Shown here in pieces: positions 7,332-30,729 of a stretch of 30,987 nt of DNA. The translations under genes were made by a program, and so were the position numbers. Position 1 is the first letter of the stretch. Each line of letters opens with the position of its first letter. The stretch is from a virus: IMG/VR virus record IMGVR_UViG_3300034120_001349, positions 1 through 30,987 of that record. One strand, given 5' to 3'. Below the pieces are notes generated by a model. The model was not told the DNA's origin. It saw only the letters and a list, made by a program, of their open reading frames with translations, and did no database searches.

Positions 7332-7875
7332 GCAGGTCGGCATCAGGATCACGACAAGCATCCCTGGGCTGGAAAGCATCCGCAATGCCTTTTTGGCCCT
7401 GCCGAAGAACCTCGCCGCCAAGCACATGGCTGCCGGGCTACGGCGTGCGGCTGAGAAGGGCGGCACGCTGCAGGCCCTGAAGTCAGCCACGCCGAGAGGC
7501 CCTACTGGGAACCTCCGGCGGTCGATCGCCGTGAAGAGCAAAAGGTACCCGCGAACCGGTGTGGGCATTGCCATTCTCGGGTTCAAGTCTGGCCGGAAGA
7601 TGAACGAGCCATACGACAACACAAAGCTGGGCTACCACCAGGGGCTTGTCGAGTTCGGCACCAAAGAGCGTTTCCGCCGCACGCAGGACGGCCGCAGGGT
7701 GTCGACCGGGAAGATGCCGGTCGGCGGCTCGTACGGTCGGCCTCCAATCCGATCGGCATGGGAGCAGACACGCGAGCGTGTTGAATCGCTGATGGTCGAG
7801 GAAATGACCAACGCTTTCGACAAGGCCGCCCGCGAGCTCGCCGACAAAATCAAGTCACTCCAGGGGCCGTTCTGA
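7324..7875 (+). CDS. HK97 gp10-like tail completion protein
   Basis: The product is 183 residues from ATG 7324. The N-terminal GLESIRNAFLALPKNLAAK, the central GNLRRSIAVK and the YHQGLVEFGTKE block, followed by RPPIRSAWEQTRERV, are the landmarks of the HK97 gp10 family. Members act at the head-tail joint or tail completion. An in-frame GTG upstream at 7075 would run through the previous gene and is rejected. The order closure, gp10-like, tail terminator is the usual one. Length is slightly above the family norm because of a basic insertion near residues 110-130. Confidence 0.88.
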   Translation: MAEQVGIRITTSIPGLESIRNAFLALPKNLAAKHMAAGLRRAAEKGGTLQALKSATPRGPTGNLRRSIAVKSKRYPRTGVGIAILGFKSGRKMNEPYDNTKLGYHQGLVEFGTKERFRRTQDGRRVSTGKMPVGGSYGRPPIRSAWEQTRERVESLMVEEMTNAFDKAARELADKIKSLQGPF

Positions 7876-19335: not shown

Positions 19336-20393
19336 TCGACGACGTGGCCGAGCATGTGAGCCATGCCGCCCAGCTGGAGGCCGACGCCGAGCTCGCCCGG
19401 CTGCGGTCAGAGCTTGCCTCGTACCGAAATCGGTACAAGGCCGCCCTGGCTCAGATCGACAAGGAGCGGGAACGGGCCGACGCGATCTCGTCGCTCAAGG
19501 GCGTGCAGCCGGTGGCCTTGACCAAGGCTGTCAAAGGAAAGAAGCGGGCCAAGCACCTGGCTACGGCCATCCTCATGCTGTCGGACGTGCACTGCGAAGA
19601 GCGCGTACTTCCTGAAACCGTCAACGGCGAGAACGACTACTCGCTCGACGTGTGCCAGGCCCGGCTGGCCGAGCTCGAGGAGCGGTTCATCGAGTGCCTA
19701 CACCACGAACGCAACCAGGCAGACATCCGCCGCGTGCTCATCTGGCTGGGCGGGGACTTTCTGACCGGTCACATTCACCCGGACTGCGTCGAGGTGGCGC
19801 AGTTATCGCCAATGAACGCCACCAGGTGGATCGCCGAGCGGCTGCGTGGGCTGATCGACAACGTCGCCAAGCACGCCGAGCAGGTGATCGTCTGCACGAA
19901 CGCCGGCAACCACGGCCGCAGCACCGAGAAGAACCGCATCGCCACGGAGTTAGAACACTCGTGGGAACAGCTGATGTACTTCACGCTGGCTCGCGAGGAG
20001 AAGAACAAGAACGTGCAGTGGCAGATCGCCGAGGGCCACCTGGGCTACGTCGACCTCGACGGGTTCCTGGTCCGCACGACTCATGGCCACTCCATCCGGT
20101 TTGCCGGTGGCGTCTACGGTCTGGCACTGCCGGCCAGCAAGGCGATCGCCCGGTGGGACGCTGGCCGCAAGGCCGACCTGACGATCTTTGGCCACTATCA
20201 CTCATGGGGCTGGCTGCGTGGCGCACGGTACGTGGCGAACGGCAGCGTGATTGGACACTCGCCATACGCTGAACGTGTCGCCTCGCCGGAGCGGCCGTGC
20301 CAGGGCATGGCCATCATCGACCATGGCCGGCACGAGGTGACGCGGGCGTATCCATTGTTCTGTGACCGTGATTTGCGAAAGGACACCAAATGA
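19314..20393 (+). CDS. Calcineurin-like metallophosphoesterase
   Basis: The product is 359 residues from GTG 19314, behind GGGAG at 19303-19307. An N-terminal coiled coil of about 75 residues comes first. The metallophosphoesterase motifs follow in order: DVH in MLSDVHCEE, GGDFLTG, GNHG in NAGNHGRS, THGHS and GHYHS, with a final VANGSVIGHS. Two metal ions are expected in the active site. The family includes phosphatases and nucleases such as SbcD/Mre11-type enzymes; the substrate here cannot be told. The position before nucleotide-type genes hints at DNA or nucleotide processing. Confidence 0.85.
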   Translation: MAKQAKLIDDVAEHVSHAAQLEADAELARLRSELASYRNRYKAALAQIDKERERADAISSLKGVQPVALTKAVKGKKRAKHLATAILMLSDVHCEERVLPETVNGENDYSLDVCQARLAELEERFIECLHHERNQADIRRVLIWLGGDFLTGHIHPDCVEVAQLSPMNATRWIAERLRGLIDNVAKHAEQVIVCTNAGNHGRSTEKNRIATELEHSWEQLMYFTLAREEKNKNVQWQIAEGHLGYVDLDGFLVRTTHGHSIRFAGGVYGLALPASKAIARWDAGRKADLTIFGHYHSWGWLRGARYVANGSVIGHSPYAERVASPERPCQGMAIIDHGRHEVTRAYPLFCDRDLRKDTK

Positions 20394-20980: not shown

Positions 20981-21916
20981 TCAGGCTGCTGGCTTGTCGC
21001 CTTCCTGCCCCTCGTCCTTTGGCGGCAGCTGCCGCGGCCCAAGGTCGAGCGGTGGCAGGAAATCCAGAGCAGACTGCTGCCGCACGATCCGCGGGTCCAG
21101 ATAGTGGTCTCTGGTGGTCCGCGGGTTAGCGTGGCCCAGGTGCTCGCTGGCATCTCCGCCCCCTGCCCTGACGTAGCTGCCGCTGGCCTTGCGGATGGCA
21201 TGGAACCCGCGAGGCTTTACGCCGGCCAGGCGGCAGATCCTCCGTATAGTGGGGAAGATGGAGTTCTCGTGCCGATTGTCGAGCCACGGCCAGACATGGT
21301 CCCCTGGCTGCCCGCGGTGCATCTTCAGCCACTCAACCAACTGCGGCGAGATTTGCCGGTGGATGGTCGTGATGTGGTCCTTCCTGTGCTGGCCCAGCAG
21401 CGTGATCATCCGGTGCTCGAGGTCTACCTCCTCCCAGCGCAGCCGCAGCAGAGACCCGATCCTTTCGCCCGACTCCCAGGCACAGACCAAAAGTGTCTGC
21501 CAGAACCACGGCGCAGGCACTGGGCCGATATGGCCTCTGGTCACTCTGGCCTGCCTGACGATCGCCGACAGTTCGTCGACCGTGTAGCCGCGAGGTGGTT
21601 TCATTGGCACGCGAATCCGCGGCCACTCTACACACTGCTCGATCAGCTTTTTTTTGAACGCGTAATTTCCGAGAGAGGCTAGGTGGGCCTTGTCCTTCGC
21701 CACGCTGGCCGGCGACGGCACCTTGCCCTTGTGTGGCGTCGTGGCACGCCATCTGAGGAACTTTGCCATGCCTAGGTCTGTCAGGTCGTCTAGGGCCGGC
21801 TCTCGCCCCAGATGGTCACGCAGGCGATCTATCGTCGATTCGAACAGGACAACGGACCGATGGGACAGGTTGCGAAGCGGGGCATACCTGTCGTTCAGCA
21901 ATTCTTTCAGAGTCAT
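20981..21916 (-). CDS. int: Tyrosine recombinase / phage integrase
   Basis: The product is 311 residues from the start complementary to 21914-21916, with AAAGGTG upstream; the frame stays open much further upstream but that part overlaps the excisionase. The first 110 residues form a core-binding domain. The catalytic set is complete: R152 in ESGERIGSLLRLRW, K179 in GQHRKDH, H239 and R242 in FHAIRKAS, H262 in EHLGHAN and nucleophile Y272 in RDHYLDPR. It joins phage and host att sites. It is the only clear gene on this strand, diverges from the excisionase-like gene and converges with 20390. Confidence 0.95.
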   Translation of the reverse strand: MTLKELLNDRYAPLRNLSHRSVVLFESTIDRLRDHLGREPALDDLTDLGMAKFLRWRATTPHKGKVPSPASVAKDKAHLASLGNYAFKKKLIEQCVEWPRIRVPMKPPRGYTVDELSAIVRQARVTRGHIGPVPAPWFWQTLLVCAWESGERIGSLLRLRWEEVDLEHRMITLLGQHRKDHITTIHRQISPQLVEWLKMHRGQPGDHVWPWLDNRHENSIFPTIRRICRLAGVKPRGFHAIRKASGSYVRAGGGDASEHLGHANPRTTRDHYLDPRIVRQQSALDFLPPLDLGPRQLPPKDEGQEGDKPAA

Positions 21917-22059
21917 ACGGCACCTTTCGCGGCGGTGCCTCCATGCAGTTTTCCGACGCCCTGCCCCATGCAGGACACCGGCTCCATGCTCACGCACCGC
22001 CAAGCGCCAGTATACTAATGTACAGAACAGGCATCCCCATGCCCTCCGCTGGACGGTTT

Positions 22060-22073
22060 GTTCACTACTGAAC
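22060..22073. repeat. Short inverted repeat GTTCA-N4-TGAAC
   Basis: Five-base arms (22060-22064 and 22069-22073) are separated by four bases, in the int-excisionase intergenic region. This is a possible binding site for integrase, excisionase or a repressor. It may also be chance. Confidence 0.35.
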
Positions 22074-22110
22074 CTTACGAGCTCGAGGTCGGGCCTGGCA
22101 AGTGGCGTAT

Positions 22111-22138
22111 TTGACCTGGGTTCCCGCATCGGTACCAT
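22111..22138 (+). promoter_or_regulatory. Promoter P1 for the excisionase-like gene
   Basis: TTGACC (22111-22116) and TACCAT (22133-22138) are 16 bases apart. The predicted start of transcription is near 22145, next to the ATG at 22146, which would make the message leaderless. The spacer carries dyad S1. Confidence 0.6.
22120..22135. promoter_or_regulatory. Operator-like dyad S1
   Basis: GTTCC-N6-GGTAC, overlapping the spacer and -10 box of P1. One of four sites with consensus RTTCC-N6-GGWAC in 800 bases. Confidence 0.6.
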
Positions 22139-22145
22139 TGGGTGC

Positions 22146-22385
22146 ATGATCGCTCTCATGAAAGACGATAAAGGCCGCAAATTGCTGTCTTGCCGCGATG
22201 CTGCCGAGCAATACGGCTGCACGATGCGGTACATCCGCAAACTGGCCCAGGACGGCCGTCTTTCGTTCGAGTTGGTCGGCGGCTCCTACATGGTTGCGGC
22301 CGACGAGGTGGCCAAACTGAAGGCCAAGACCGCAAAGGGGACCGGCCGGCACAAGCCCAAGGCCGAAAAGTTCCGCCCTGGCTGA
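22146..22385 (+). CDS. Excisionase-like small HTH protein
   Basis: The product is 79 residues from ATG 22146; an inner ATG at 22158 is possible. The sequence LLSCRDAAEQYGCTMRYIRK followed by LAQDGRLSFELVGGSYMVAADEVAKLK is the winged-helix MerR/HTH_17 excisionase pattern: helix, recognition helix, then a wing with G and Y/M residues. A Lys-rich tail (KPKAEKFRPG) follows. It diverges from int, where excisionases and directionality factors normally sit. No ribosome site is seen, in line with a leaderless message from P1. A regulator role besides excision is possible. Confidence 0.8.
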   Translation: MIALMKDDKGRKLLSCRDAAEQYGCTMRYIRKLAQDGRLSFELVGGSYMVAADEVAKLKAKTAKGTGRHKPKAEKFRPG

Positions 22386-22445
22386 GTCCCCTGCCCTGCA
22401 TTTTCGCGGCAGAAACCACGAAAACTAAAATTCTCTAATCCCCTC

Positions 22446-22473
22446 TTGCCAATGGTTCCGATTTAGGTACCAT
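22446..22473 (+). promoter_or_regulatory. Promoter P2 before the 22523 gene
   Basis: TTGCCA (22446-22451) and TACCAT (22468-22473), 16-base spacer containing dyad S2. The start of transcription is expected near 22480, about 43 bases before ATG 22523. The rest of 22386-22522 is an AT-rich leader with a weak TTTTCG/CGAAAA inverted repeat at 22401-22424. Confidence 0.6.
22455..22470. promoter_or_regulatory. Operator-like dyad S2
   Basis: GTTCC-N6-GGTAC in the spacer of P2. Followed by CATTGGG as S1 is. Confidence 0.6.
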
Positions 22474-22522
22474 TGGGCCGTGCGAGCGATTGAGACTCGC
22501 GGCGTCCTCAAGGACCACGGAA

Positions 22523-22759
22523 ATGCTTGTCAGCAAGAAAGACGTGCTGCGAAGCCTGGCCGGGATGAAGCCTGGCGAGTGCCGGTTTGTTGGCCGCGAA
22601 GATGTTCACGCTTATTGCCACGGCACCCGCGTCGACGGCAAGTACGACGCCAAGATCAAGAGTTACCGCGTGGTTACCCGCGGCCGCAAGTACGACTCAC
22701 AGGATTGGGTTGGTGCCGAAGCTGCCGCGCTCGTCGTGCTGCAACTGCTCCGCATCTAG
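22523..22759 (+). CDS. Small early phage protein of unknown function
   Basis: The product is 78 residues from ATG 22523, with AAGGA at 22510-22514; a TTG at 22490 in frame is rejected. It begins LVSKKDVLRSLAGMKPGECR, has FVGREDVHAYCHGTRVDG and YRVVTRGRKYDSQDW and ends in a hydrophobic helix ALVVLQLLRI. The charge pattern suits a small nucleic-acid-binding or interaction protein. I recognise no family. It is the first gene behind P2 and is likely early. Confidence 0.65.
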   Translation: MLVSKKDVLRSLAGMKPGECRFVGREDVHAYCHGTRVDGKYDAKIKSYRVVTRGRKYDSQDWVGAEAAALVVLQLLRI

Positions 22760-22787
22760 TTCAAGCAACGCCAAGGAGGGCCACGCC

Positions 22788-22859
22788 ATGAACGCTGATT
22801 TCTGGATCGAGATTTTGATCCTTGCTCTGCGGATTGTTTCCGCAGGCATCGCCAGTTGA
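22788..22859 (+). CDS. Membrane microprotein, 23 residues
   Basis: ATG 22788 follows a very strong ribosome site, AAGGAGGG at 22773-22780, with seven bases between. The frame codes 23 residues (MNADFWIEILILALRIVSAG then IAS) to TGA 22857, nearly all one membrane helix. Such a good start signal before so short a frame is unusual and argues for a real peptide. The stop overlaps the -35 box of P3. Function unknown. Confidence 0.6.
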   Translation: MNADFWIEILILALRIVSAGIAS

Positions 22860-22883
22860 CACTGGTTCCGATTGCGGTACAGT
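22856..22883 (+). promoter_or_regulatory. Promoter P3
   Basis: TTGACA (22856-22861) and TACAGT (22878-22883), 16-base spacer, with dyad S3. The best -35 box of the set. It faces the operon that starts with the 23028 gene. Confidence 0.65.
22865..22880. promoter_or_regulatory. Operator-like dyad S3
   Basis: GTTCC-N6-GGTAC in P3. Its centre is 31 bp from that of S4, about three helical turns. Confidence 0.6.
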
Positions 22884-22895
22884 GCTGCCCAAATG

Positions 22896-22911
22896 ATTCC
22901 GATTTGGGAAC
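22896..22911. promoter_or_regulatory. Operator-like dyad S4
   Basis: ATTCC-N6-GGAAC, the most symmetrical of the four, just downstream of P3. No promoter box is embedded in it. Confidence 0.55.
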
Positions 22912-22972
22912 ACTCAGCACGGTTGGTCGCGTATACGCAAAGTTTAGTCCCACACGATTCTCGTCCGAACGC

Positions 22973-23000
22973 TTGCCAAGAGACTGATCGTATGTACACT
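22973..23000 (+). promoter_or_regulatory. Promoter P4 without dyad
   Basis: TTGCCA (22973-22978) and TACACT (22995-23000), 16-base spacer that lacks the dyad. A start near 23007 would leave a short leader before ATG 23028. A 10-bp palindrome GCGTATACGC lies upstream at 22929-22938. Confidence 0.5.
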
Positions 23001-23027
23001 CCCCCAAAAACAGGAGAAAGGCACCCA

Positions 23028-23279
23028 ATGGACCCACACGAAAACGAGTACGCGGCCGCCGTCGCCGCAATGCCCGAACACACCATCAGCCCCTCGCTCG
23101 CCGACCGGTTCCCGATCGGCAGCGGCGTCACCTATCGCCTCTACGGCTGGCCGCAGAGCTCGTACGACGACGGCCAGGTGATCGGCCACCACGACGGCAA
23201 GGTGCTCTTGGAGACCGTCGACGACATCGTGGAGGTCGACCCGAGGCCGTGGCCGCTGGGCAACGTGTTGCCCTTCTGA
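23028..23279 (+). CDS. Small early phage protein of unknown function
   Basis: The product is 83 residues from ATG 23028, with AGGAGAAAGG just upstream; in-frame starts at 22992 and 22872 lie in the promoter region and are rejected. An acidic, Ala-rich helix (DPHENEYAAAVAAMPEH) is followed by a small beta domain with SGVTYRLYGW, DGQVIGHHDGKVLLETVDD and a Pro-rich end. The beta part looks like an SH3-type or KOW-like small barrel, but the match is loose. It is the first gene of the early operon behind P3/P4. The 145 bases after it hold no convincing gene. Confidence 0.65.
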   Translation: MDPHENEYAAAVAAMPEHTISPSLADRFPIGSGVTYRLYGWPQSSYDDGQVIGHHDGKVLLETVDDIVEVDPRPWPLGNVLPF

Positions 23280-29063: not shown

Positions 29064-29284
29064 CCATGCCCTCCGAACGCACTGCCGCGATCGTATGGAC
29101 CCGTGCGTTCCTGGTCCGGCTGTCGAGCCCCTACATGCCGGACGGGTGTAAACGCATCCCGGCCGCCGTCAGGCAGGAGGCCCGGCGGCTGCTGAAGCAC
29201 TACCCGCACGCGTTCGACCTGGCCCAGGGCGACTCGCTGTGCCAGGAGACTGCCACGAAATTGTTGGACGAGGTGACACCATGA
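29060..29284 (+). CDS. Small phage protein (BPSL0761-like)
   Basis: The product is 74 residues from ATG 29060, with AGGAGGT at 29047-29053. It reads MPSERTAAIVWTRAFLVRL, then IPAAVRQEARRLLKHYPHAF. The order RT-AI-TRxFL, then PxxVRxEAxxLLxHYP is one I recall from a family of small proteins of phages and prophages named BPSL0761-like. The function is unknown. It overlaps the genes on both sides. Confidence 0.72.
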   Translation: MTMPSERTAAIVWTRAFLVRLSSPYMPDGCKRIPAAVRQEARRLLKHYPHAFDLAQGDSLCQETATKLLDEVTP

Positions 29285-29520
29285 CGCAGGAGCAGCAGAT
29301 GACCACGTCAGAAAAGACCCCGCTCACGGCGAGGCAACAGGAAGTCTACGAGTTCATCGTGGCTAACATCGAGCTTTATTCGCCAACCGTGCGGGAGATC
29401 GCCAAGGCGTTGTCGATCAAATCGCCGCACGGCGTGACGCAGCACCTTGACGCCCTGGAGAAAAAGGGCTGGATCAGCCGCAAGCCGCACGCGGTGCGGG
29501 GGATCAAGGTGAACGCATGA
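29281..29520 (+). CDS. LexA DNA-binding domain protein without protease
   Basis: The product is 79 residues from ATG 29281. From residue 15 it follows the LexA N-terminal winged helix closely: LTARQQEVYEFIVANI, SPTVREIAKALSIKSPHGV, LDALEKKGWISRK and RGIKVNA, comparable to residues 4-72 of E. coli LexA. The sequence ends where LexA's hinge and self-cleaving, dimerising domain would begin. It is thus a free LexA-type DNA-binding domain. It may compete with host LexA or serve as a phage repressor. It lies right before a clamp gene. Start overlaps by ATGA. Confidence 0.88.
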   Translation: MTQEQQMTTSEKTPLTARQQEVYEFIVANIELYSPTVREIAKALSIKSPHGVTQHLDALEKKGWISRKPHAVRGIKVNA

Positions 29521-29717
29521 GTATCGAACACGCGGTGTTTCTGGCAACGGGTGTGCTGGTCAACGGATTGACTTTTGCCCTCGGCATCGCCGTGGGCGTT
29601 TCCCTCAAGCGAAAGGATTCTCCACATGGTTACGACTTCCAAAAATCGCAATGGCATCGTGTTGAGCGTCGCGGCGTTCAAGGCGGCATTATCGACCGTG
29701 AAAAGCGCGGTGATTGA
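29517..29717 (+). CDS. Small membrane protein, overlapping dnaN
   Basis: ATG 29517 overlaps the LexA-like stop by ATGA. The 66-residue product has one membrane helix (AVFLATGVLVNGLTFALGIA then VGVSLKRK) followed by a basic tail. The last 92 bases overlap the start of dnaN in another frame. The first part looks real; the tail may be shaped by the dnaN frame. Function unknown. Confidence 0.5.
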   Translation: MSIEHAVFLATGVLVNGLTFALGIAVGVSLKRKDSPHGYDFQKSQWHRVERRGVQGGIIDREKRGD

Positions 29718-30729
29718 CCGCACGCCGAAACCAATCCTCCGCAACGTGCTGATCTCGGGCGGCCAGGTGGTCGGCACGGACCTCGAGGTGCAGGTGACGG
29801 CCGCTGTGCCGTTTGACGGCCCGGCCCTGCTGCTGCCAATGCAGCGTGTGTGGTCGATCCTGTCCGAGTGCCACGACGACGAAATCACCATCACGCCGAA
29901 GGACAGCAGCTGCGTGCTGTCCACGGTGCGTGGGTCGTGGACGCTTCCGACCGAGGATCCGGCCGAGTTTCCCACGATGACTGCCGACGGTGCCAAGAAC
30001 CGCATCAAGCTGCCGGCGGACCAGTTCGCCGGCCTGGTGCGTGCCGTGGTGGATGCCTGCGACCTGAAGAGCAGCCGTTACGCTTTGGGTGGCGTGATGG
30101 TCGAGGTGAAGGGCGAAAAGGTGTCCTTCGTGGCCACCGACGGCCGGCGGCTGACGATGGCCGAGGCCGAGCACTTCCTGGCCGTGGACGACTCCGAGAC
30201 GCTGATCCCGCAGCGGGTGGCCAAGATGATGGCCGAGATCGCCAAGGAGGCCGGCGGCGAGGAGCTCGTCGAGCTCGAGGCCAGTGCGACCACGCTGGTC
30301 TGCACCATCGGGTCGACCGTTGTGACGGCCAGGCTGGTCGATGGCAGGTTCCCGAAGTGGCGCGACGTGTTCCCGAAGACCGAGGCCAAGCCGACGAGCG
30401 TGAGCCGTGGGCTGCTGGCTGATGCGACTCGGGCCGCTGCGATCACCACGAGCGAGTCGAGCAAAGGCGTGGACTTTTCGTTCTCGAAGGAGGGCATGCA
30501 CCTGCACGCTCAGAGCAGCGAGGCCGGCGAGTCGAGCGTGACGTGCGACATCGTCGAGTTCGGCAACGCTGCCACGGTGAAGCTCGACCCGAAGTTCCTG
30601 CTAGACTTCCTGGCTGGCCTTGCCAAGGACGGTGAGCCGAACGTGGAGATTCAAGCGACAAAGCCGGGCGATGCCGTGCGGCTCAAGTGCGGCGACGTGC
30701 ATGGTGTGATCATGCCTCTGGCGGACTGA
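29626..30729 (+). CDS. dnaN: DNA polymerase III beta sliding clamp
   Basis: The product is 367 residues from ATG 29626, with AAAGGA at 29611-29616; the length equals that of the E. coli clamp (366). It has the three-domain clamp pattern: VLSVAAFKAALSTVKSAVID with TPKPILRNVLISG, GVMVEVKGEKVSFVATDGRR with LTMAEAEHF, then a third domain ending with NVEIQATKPGDAVRLKC and HGVIMPL. The TDGRRL motif is the family signature. The clamp tethers DNA polymerase. A phage-encoded clamp next to SSB, Sak4 and replication genes suggests its own processivity factor. Confidence 0.93.
   Translation: MVTTSKNRNGIVLSVAAFKAALSTVKSAVIDRTPKPILRNVLISGGQVVGTDLEVQVTAAVPFDGPALLLPMQRVWSILSECHDDEITITPKDSSCVLSTVRGSWTLPTEDPAEFPTMTADGAKNRIKLPADQFAGLVRAVVDACDLKSSRYALGGVMVEVKGEKVSFVATDGRRLTMAEAEHFLAVDDSETLIPQRVAKMMAEIAKEAGGEELVELEASATTLVCTIGSTVVTARLVDGRFPKWRDVFPKTEAKPTSVSRGLLADATRAAAITTSESSKGVDFSFSKEGMHLHAQSSEAGESSVTCDIVEFGNAATVKLDPKFLLDFLAGLAKDGEPNVEIQATKPGDAVRLKCGDVHGVIMPLAD

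Follow-up and report, generated by a model that had tools for sequence, protein, structure and literature searches.

We analysed a 30,987-base virus record (GC 63%; hereafter the window), which represents the same phage type as the IMG/VR record G001 (40,151 bases). The two records are circularly permuted versions of a ~40 kb circle, with window base 1 corresponding to G001 base 32,342 and G001 base 1 to window base 7,659. At the locus studied here, a tyrosine integrase gene (int) lies beside a small gene for a predicted winged-helix (wHTH) protein of 79 aa, and four promoters and four palindromic sites (S1 to S4) are found on the way to an early operon (Table 1). Further along that operon, a stand-alone LexA domain is encoded shortly 5' of the gene for the DNA polymerase III beta clamp (29626-30729).

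Table 1. Positions of genes, promoters and dyads in the window.
Feature	Position	Strand	Details
Tyrosine integrase, 311 aa	20981..21916	-	PF00589, E 2.3e-11; phrog_1 integrase, E 2.1e-28
Putative int promoter with second-family dyad	22009..22027	-	Dyad TGTACATTAGTATA (22011-22024) overlaps -10 TATACT; no good -35 seen
Promoter of the 79-aa gene (S1)	22111..22138	+	TTGACC-N16-TACCAT; -10 ends 7 nt 5' of ATG
Operator S1	22119..22136	+	GGTTCCCGCATCGGTACC; in other phages kept at -26/-27 of the 79-aa gene
79-aa winged-helix protein, proposed immunity repressor	22146..22385	+	HTH_17; Xis-like fold (predicted)
S2 promoter	22446..22473	+	TTGCCA-N16-TACCAT
Operator S2	22454..22471	+	GGTTCCGATTTAGGTACC
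Possible 5' stem-loop of the S2 transcript	22482..22500	+	GCGAG/CTCGC; from single folds and inspection
78-aa ORF behind S2	22523..22759	+	No family match
S3 promoter	22856..22883	+	TTGACA-N16-TACAGT
Operator S3	22864..22881	+	GGTTCCGATTGCGGTACA
Operator S4	22895..22912	+	GATTCCGATTTGGGAACA; 31 bp 3' of S3, just past the expected start
P4 (fourth promoter), before the early operon	22973..23000	+	TTGCCA-N16-TACACT
Second-family dyad in P4, LexA-box-like	22985..22998	+	TGATCGTATGTACA; 0 mismatches to TGWWC-N4-GWWCA
First early-operon ORF (MDPHENEY...)	23028..23279	+	Similar ORF after P4 in other phages
LexA DNA-binding domain, 79 aa, without peptidase domain	29281..29520	+	PF01726, 74.4 bits (cut-off 23.7)

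Operator-like palindromes and their promoters

An earlier reading made from the letters alone (the sequence-only reading) had described four RTTCC-N6-GGWAC dyads in this region. Exactly four are present in the window, all on the plus strand (at 22120, 22455, 22865 and 22896), and they are the sole strong matches in the ~40 kb circle of the phage. When one mismatch was allowed, the additional matches were the same sites read backwards and three others (at 237, 19421 and 25438). At up to two mismatches the window holds 89 matches versus 62 expected from shuffled sequence, and 2 of 100 shuffles reached 89. Since this loose pattern is just mildly enriched, the case rests on the exact sites, their clustering and their conservation.

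A better consensus was the self-complementary 18-mer GGTTCCGANNTCGGAACC. With a threshold of 13/16 matching positions, it identified four sites in the lysogeny region and none outside it, whether in the window or across the first 40,000 bases of G001. We then scored the window with a matrix of 22 distinct S1/S2 sites, all taken from phages other than that of the window. This matrix placed S1 to S4 all among the top five matches (S1, 23.5; S4, 19.8; S2, 17.5; S3, 16.3), with S3 and S4 scoring best on the minus strand. Among 60 first-order Markov copies of the window, the top score per copy averaged 10.9 and was 17.3 at most, a maximum that S2 barely exceeded and S3 did not reach. The remaining top-five match, at 19420 (score 20.3), lies inside a coding gene. 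As a near-identical copy is found in L077, a phage with another class of operator (class B, below), we read this match as coding and rejected it as an operator.

All three promoters that had been placed over dyads, with the form TTG(A/C)C(A/C)-N16 and the dyad across the spacer and -10 box, were located, and the S1 and S2 promoters do share a continuation, both running on into TACCATTGGG. The 16-base spacer turned out to be usual rather than strict: among 47 distinct regions upstream of the wHTH gene, the S1 spacer was 16 bases in 38 and 17 bases in 7. In 45 of these 47 regions the -10 box lies 6 or 7 nt 5' of the wHTH ATG, so close that the mRNA of the 79-aa gene is probably leaderless; the repressor mRNA from lambda PRM is leaderless. 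The -35 box of the S2 promoter begins some 30 to 65 bp past the wHTH stop codon. S4 is without a promoter of its own, and its 18-mer begins 12 bases beyond the last base of the S3 -10 box.

Conservation of the sites in related phages

Searching viral_contigs for dyads embedded in promoters yielded 27 stretches. Ten of them (GC 60-64%) carry the motif in a promoter setting, three of these being close kin of the window, and in nine of the ten a further dyad follows ~30 bp 3'. The other 17 look like chance matches in other genomes. With as many as three mismatches allowed, the window and each of ten full records have between one and four sites, while a reversed control pattern gave none. At the threshold of 13/16, 20 of 21 sites fall in the lysogeny region across six records (the window and G001 represent a single phage) and 28 of 31 over ten records; the three that lie elsewhere (two in G005, one in G008) are of equal strength and in coding DNA.

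Sites at places equivalent to S1, S2 and S3/S4 were found in more than 20 distinct IMG/VR relatives. The layout is shared, with int on the minus strand, the wHTH gene on the plus strand, S1 over the wHTH promoter beside int, S2 ~300 bp further on, and S3/S4 5' of the early operon, ~500-1900 bp from the wHTH gene start. A wHTH gene adjoins every tandem operator for which there is sufficient flanking sequence (contig G007 begins at the operator). The letters of the sites fall into classes. The window belongs to class A, with GTTCC half-sites, whereas phages with other versions of the wHTH protein keep the promoters but carry GTAAC, GTACC or GTGCC. In class B, where the recognition helix reads EGYIR, the same promoters bear AGTAACG-N-TA-N-CGTTACT. 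The wHTH protein is 76-79 aa long, or 87-90 aa in other classes.

Of the 27 class A loci, 15 have the S3/S4 tandem pair, and in class B it is present at 15 of 16. Nine of the 12 class A loci lacking the pair have one strong single site; the other three (L155, L158 and L159) have no S3/S4 site, L155 covering just 1.25 kb. The distance between S3 and S4 had been taken as about three helix turns, as for cooperative binding. It is indeed 31 bp in the window, but among class A loci with the pair it ranges from 29 to 38 bp (31 in 7; n = 15), and in class B it is 30 bp in 14 loci and 29 bp in one (n = 15), close kin being left unmerged in both counts. Given this variation strict helical phasing is unnecessary, and we rejected it.

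Some class A loci depart from the common pattern. L140 and L137 have no S3/S4 pair, and in them one near-perfect operator ends just 5' of the P4 -35 box. In L148, L149 and L150 the right half of S3/S4 is GCAAC, versus GGAAC, and the recognition helix is MSYIR, versus MRYIR, perhaps a sub-specificity.

The dyads might be chance look-alikes of a promoter consensus, as the right half-site overlaps the -10 box and part of each match is thereby forced, in a window where the loose pattern has its mild excess. However, the left half-site and the centre are not forced, yet S2 retains both in 23 distinct class A loci and they are exchanged as a block in class B, and S4 carries the same dyad with no promoter beneath it. 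Judged on these sequences, the chance reading is already contradicted by the conservation, and we consider its probability negligible.

The 79-aa winged-helix protein and the operator classes

The sequence-only reading had interpreted the dyads as operators of a lysogeny switch under one repressor. The positions of the sites over promoters of the lysogeny region, and their conservation, argue for this part of the interpretation, whereas a need for exactly three helix turns (above) and the dyad-free fourth promoter (below) did not stand. The repressor of S1 to S4 is most likely the 79-aa protein encoded at 22146, to judge from the sequence comparisons that follow.

HTH_17 was matched by 25 of 40 wHTH members at 1e-3, the window protein scoring 21.2 bits, under the cut-off of 27. 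PHROGs matched by the members point to excisionases and regulators: among the four matched most often, three are for excisionases or directionality factors, and phrog_66, 'excisionase and transcriptional regulator', was matched by 25 of the 40. A structure predicted from an alignment of 40 sequences (mean pLDDT 79) had as its closest fold matches Pukovnik Xis (4J2N, E 8.9e-3) and the DNA-binding domains of RacA and BldC; the best-ranked matches to these three have E 0.009 to 0.06 and about 19-24% identity over 45-59 columns, and no solved structure matched at E 0.001 or better. The protein had no match among 50,697 isolated phage records. Pfam (E up to 0.01) returned no HTH or repressor family in 14 ORFs of the 9 kb missing from the window and six more window ORFs, a scan placed outside the window's structural half; domains in those 20 ORFs include terminase, portal, HNH and glycosyltransferase.

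This profile raises the alternative that the 79-aa protein is mainly an excisionase (a recombination directionality factor, or RDF), with promoter control as a sideline. Its gene adjoins int, it has the small winged-helix fold of directionality factors with Pukovnik Xis as the closest solved relative of the model, and the phrog_66 matches point the same way. Apl of phage 186 and Cox of P2 are likewise small winged-helix proteins of the lysogeny region that act at early promoters with int nearby, and Apl does both jobs (PMC7498355). However, Apl and other RDFs are described as using direct repeats 10-11 bp apart, or one helix turn, with low or relaxed specificity (PMC7498355), whereas the conserved sites here are not direct repeats but single palindromes with class-specific letters. 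S3/S4 moreover lie far beyond the gene start (the ~500-1900 bp given above), in front of the early operon. Because its sites are palindromes in place of the direct repeats of Apl-type excisionases, the 79-aa protein appears to work like an immunity repressor, possibly with a second role as excisionase; we consider a mainly excisive function unlikely. A scan of eight stretches for tRNA genes, as a clue to attP or host, found none.

Another possible reading is activation of the MerR type, by a protein that sits in the promoter spacer and twists the DNA, in that the model has a MerR-superfamily fold and the dyads are located in the spacer. MerR promoters have spacers of 19-20 bp, as opposed to the 16-17 bp counted here in the S1 promoters (38 and 7 of 47). 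The -35 and -10 boxes look good unaided, P4 shares the geometry with no class dyad, and the dyad holds its position relative to the -10 box even where the spacer is 17 (L182). We judged MerR activation to be very unlikely.

By sequence, the 79-aa protein shows the site placement expected of an immunity repressor, its candidate operators lying over the promoter of its own gene as well as over early ones. The arrangement resembles lambda CI/Cro in having several operators of the same sequence over early promoters and an apparently autoregulated repressor gene. In contrast to lambda, the promoters here all point in the same direction, one after another, and the 79-aa protein has HTH_17 only, with none of the features of a lambda-type CI (XRE HTH, S24 peptidase or dimer domain).

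The proposed repressor and its operators also diverge together. In addition to the half-sites of classes A and B, S2 carries GTACC in L185, GTTGC in L186 and GTGCC in L160 and L192-L194, and GTCCC is present in L163 and L164, the inner dinucleotides seen being TC, AA, AC, TG, GC and CC. To quantify the co-change we started from 70 loci including the window. Ten with no scorable S2 or full protein (L157, L163-L165, L187-L191, L195) and seven with too short an int match (L141, L151, L159, L172, L192-L194) were dropped, and collapsing identical entries removed 12 more, which left 41 distinct loci. Across these, wHTH identity predicted the inner dinucleotide with an AUC of 0.974 and int identity with an AUC of 0.637, a test mainly of TC versus AA since 25 loci have TC and 13 have AA (GC, AC and TG occur once each), and one that classes D and E consequently fall outside. 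For the 581 pairs in which int is 38-55% identical, the AUC was 0.969 (wHTH) versus 0.523 (int). All of these genes are linked and related and the co-change events are therefore not independent; int is equally linked yet does not follow operator class. The correspondence is not strictly one to one, as class C proteins (MSYMR), which differ clearly from class A, go with TC (L161, L166) or GC (L160) at S2, and wHTH identity is as high as 0.74 across operator classes and as low as 0.32 within them.

The same comparison bears on whether S1 to S4 are bound by a host regulator such as LexA or by the phage's LexA-type protein, the phage encoding a LexA DNA-binding domain. L077 encodes a LexA-type protein 97% identical to that at 29281, yet bears a different operator, of class B, at the equivalent promoters, on which ground we rejected 29281, one of three further HTH candidates of the sequence-only reading (with 25934 and 26068), as the S1 to S4 binder. 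A host factor would leave the co-change with the 79-aa protein unexplained, and either form of this proposal strikes us as extremely improbable. The Sak4-like protein of L077 is also 82% identical to that of the window, and the wHTH gene and its operators thus appear to have been exchanged as one unit.

Co-divergence of repressor and operator is a trait that this switch would share with Cluster A mycobacteriophages, whose stoperators are reportedly asymmetric in sequence. In those phages (L5/Bxb1), according to PMC6550527, repressors and operator motifs diverge together with heteroimmunity, and stoperators of 13 bp occur at up to 30 sites genome-wide, mostly off promoters. Here, by contrast, three to four palindromes lie within 1-2 kb in place of many sites across the genome.

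A second dyad family and the proposed switch

P4 had been described as having the geometry of the other promoters but no dyad. The class operator is absent from it, but a different dyad, TGWWC-N4-GWWCA, is present, and this one is independent of class, being found in phages of several operator classes. At one mismatch or fewer it occurs in 26 of 38 distinct P4 promoters (two or more mismatches in the other 12) versus 0 of 41 S2 promoters, none of which came closer than three mismatches. The int leader carries it at 37 of 46 loci versus 3.2 expected from shuffles that preserve single-base composition only. Its right half is partly forced by the -10 box, for which the S2 control answers at P4 but not at int. 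When a matrix of 21 hand-picked, motif-bearing P4 sites (one of them taken from L128, which is closely related to the window, and another entered with an incorrect first base) was run on the window, P4 scored best (25.9), the int-side site at 22009 on the minus strand came second (19.5) and the next match scored 11.4.

RGTACNNNDGTWCB is the cyanobacterial-type LexA box. Its half-sites are similar to those of TGWWC-N4-GWWCA and its gap is equal, and the dyad has the GAAC/GTAC-type half-sites, N4 gap and promoter location of a LexA box. In contrast to LexA proper, the phage's LexA-type protein is without a peptidase domain. The LexA of planctomycetes fails to recognise the E. coli motif (PMC3108266). 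The LexA domain at 29281 is a candidate binder of the second-family dyads, with host LexA as the alternative; P4 and int answering to a LexA-type signal would form the weaker half of the model.

From the operator sites, their positions, promoters and conservation, and their co-change with the 79-aa protein, we infer a mechanism in which this protein, probably as a dimer, would bind 16-18 bp palindromes of the general form GTNNCGNTANCGNNAC (here GGTTCCGANNTCGGAACC). At three promoters these lie across the spacer and the -10 box; the promoters would drive the protein's own gene (S1), the next gene (S2) and the early operon (S3), and S4, just past the predicted start site, would back up S3. Bound protein would exclude RNA polymerase, so that early genes of the prophage would be off, the repressor level self-tuned and superinfection by the same class blocked. 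In a lysogen, the protein would occupy S2 and S3/S4 and limit its own synthesis at S1; an incoming phage of the same class would be repressed while one of another class would escape. Sister phages, in which recognition helix and wing have diverged, the promoters have been kept and the two inner half-site bases have changed, would be heteroimmune, and P4 and int would respond to the LexA-type signal.

We assign a probability of roughly 0.78 to this being the immunity region of a temperate siphophage, with the 79-aa wHTH protein as repressor of the S1 to S4 promoters and with heteroimmune sister phages. That the small DNA-binding protein and its operators shift specificity together between phages looks like heteroimmunity at the sequence level, and the four dyads belong to a recurring and apparently undescribed on/off switch for dormancy. 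No description of this switch was found among the matches listed for phage immunity repressors, excisionases, MerR-like proteins, LexA motifs and planctomycete phages, a literature consisting mostly of papers available without subscription, nor was any paper found for the core operator sequence itself. Much more tentatively, and with the balance of our judgement against it, the locus may exemplify a lysogeny switch of an undescribed type. An Xis-like protein of 79 aa would there have turned immunity repressor with palindromic, class-specific operators, and class-independent LexA-type boxes at the int promoter and P4 would be read by the phage LexA domain, acting like Cro, or by host LexA, giving SOS induction with no cleavable phage repressor.

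If these readings are true, uncultured phages gain a readable immunity code, mutual exclusion being predictable from the 79-aa gene and two inner operator bases. An excisionase-type fold would have been converted into a sequence-specific immunity repressor, and the natural protein/operator pairs would be material for testing specificity change in winged-helix proteins. The second dyad would tie the integrase and the early promoter to a LexA-type signal, suggesting a route of prophage induction.

For clues to the host we turned to bacterial genomes. Searching genome_contigs by peptide pattern, on the basis of the 79-aa alignment, returned five stretches, none of them a relative, and the integrase alignment gave four relatives among 98 stretches of genome contigs. 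Three are short contigs (3.3-3.4 kb) from MAGs whose titles read Proteobacteria or Alphaproteobacteria; the fourth, L202, is in a Pirellulales MAG. One of the short contigs, L199, has a related wHTH gene and a promoter with CTACCGATAGCC at the S2 place; it is too short to establish the host. In the phylum of that Pirellulales MAG, 1 of 392 genomes had a match to the 79-aa profile (E 1e-7), as did 1 of 385 in the class of G012 (E 1e-8), namely G012 itself, and the integrase matched 4 of 396 genomes in the order of the Pirellulales MAG (1e-60). Six distinct loci were then inspected (L206 and L209 overlap). By eye, none of the six has the window's operator; three have a promoter 246-260 bp past the point where the wHTH match begins, and in one of the three that match is weak.

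Two minor features flank the S2 promoter. The possible stem-loop in its leader (Table 1) has counterparts in other phages in which the letters differ yet still pair (CGCGG/CCGCG, GCAGC/GCTGC and CGGG/CCCG); an automatic consensus fold of 31 S2 leaders returned no structure, and an Rfam search of 21900-23100 gave no match. Between the wHTH stop and S2 (22386-22445), and in the same stretch of L134, L139, L144 and L148, there is a recurrent element like GAAAAGATTTTTTC. It is reverse-complemented in some phages and may be a terminator or else an upstream element rich in A/T.
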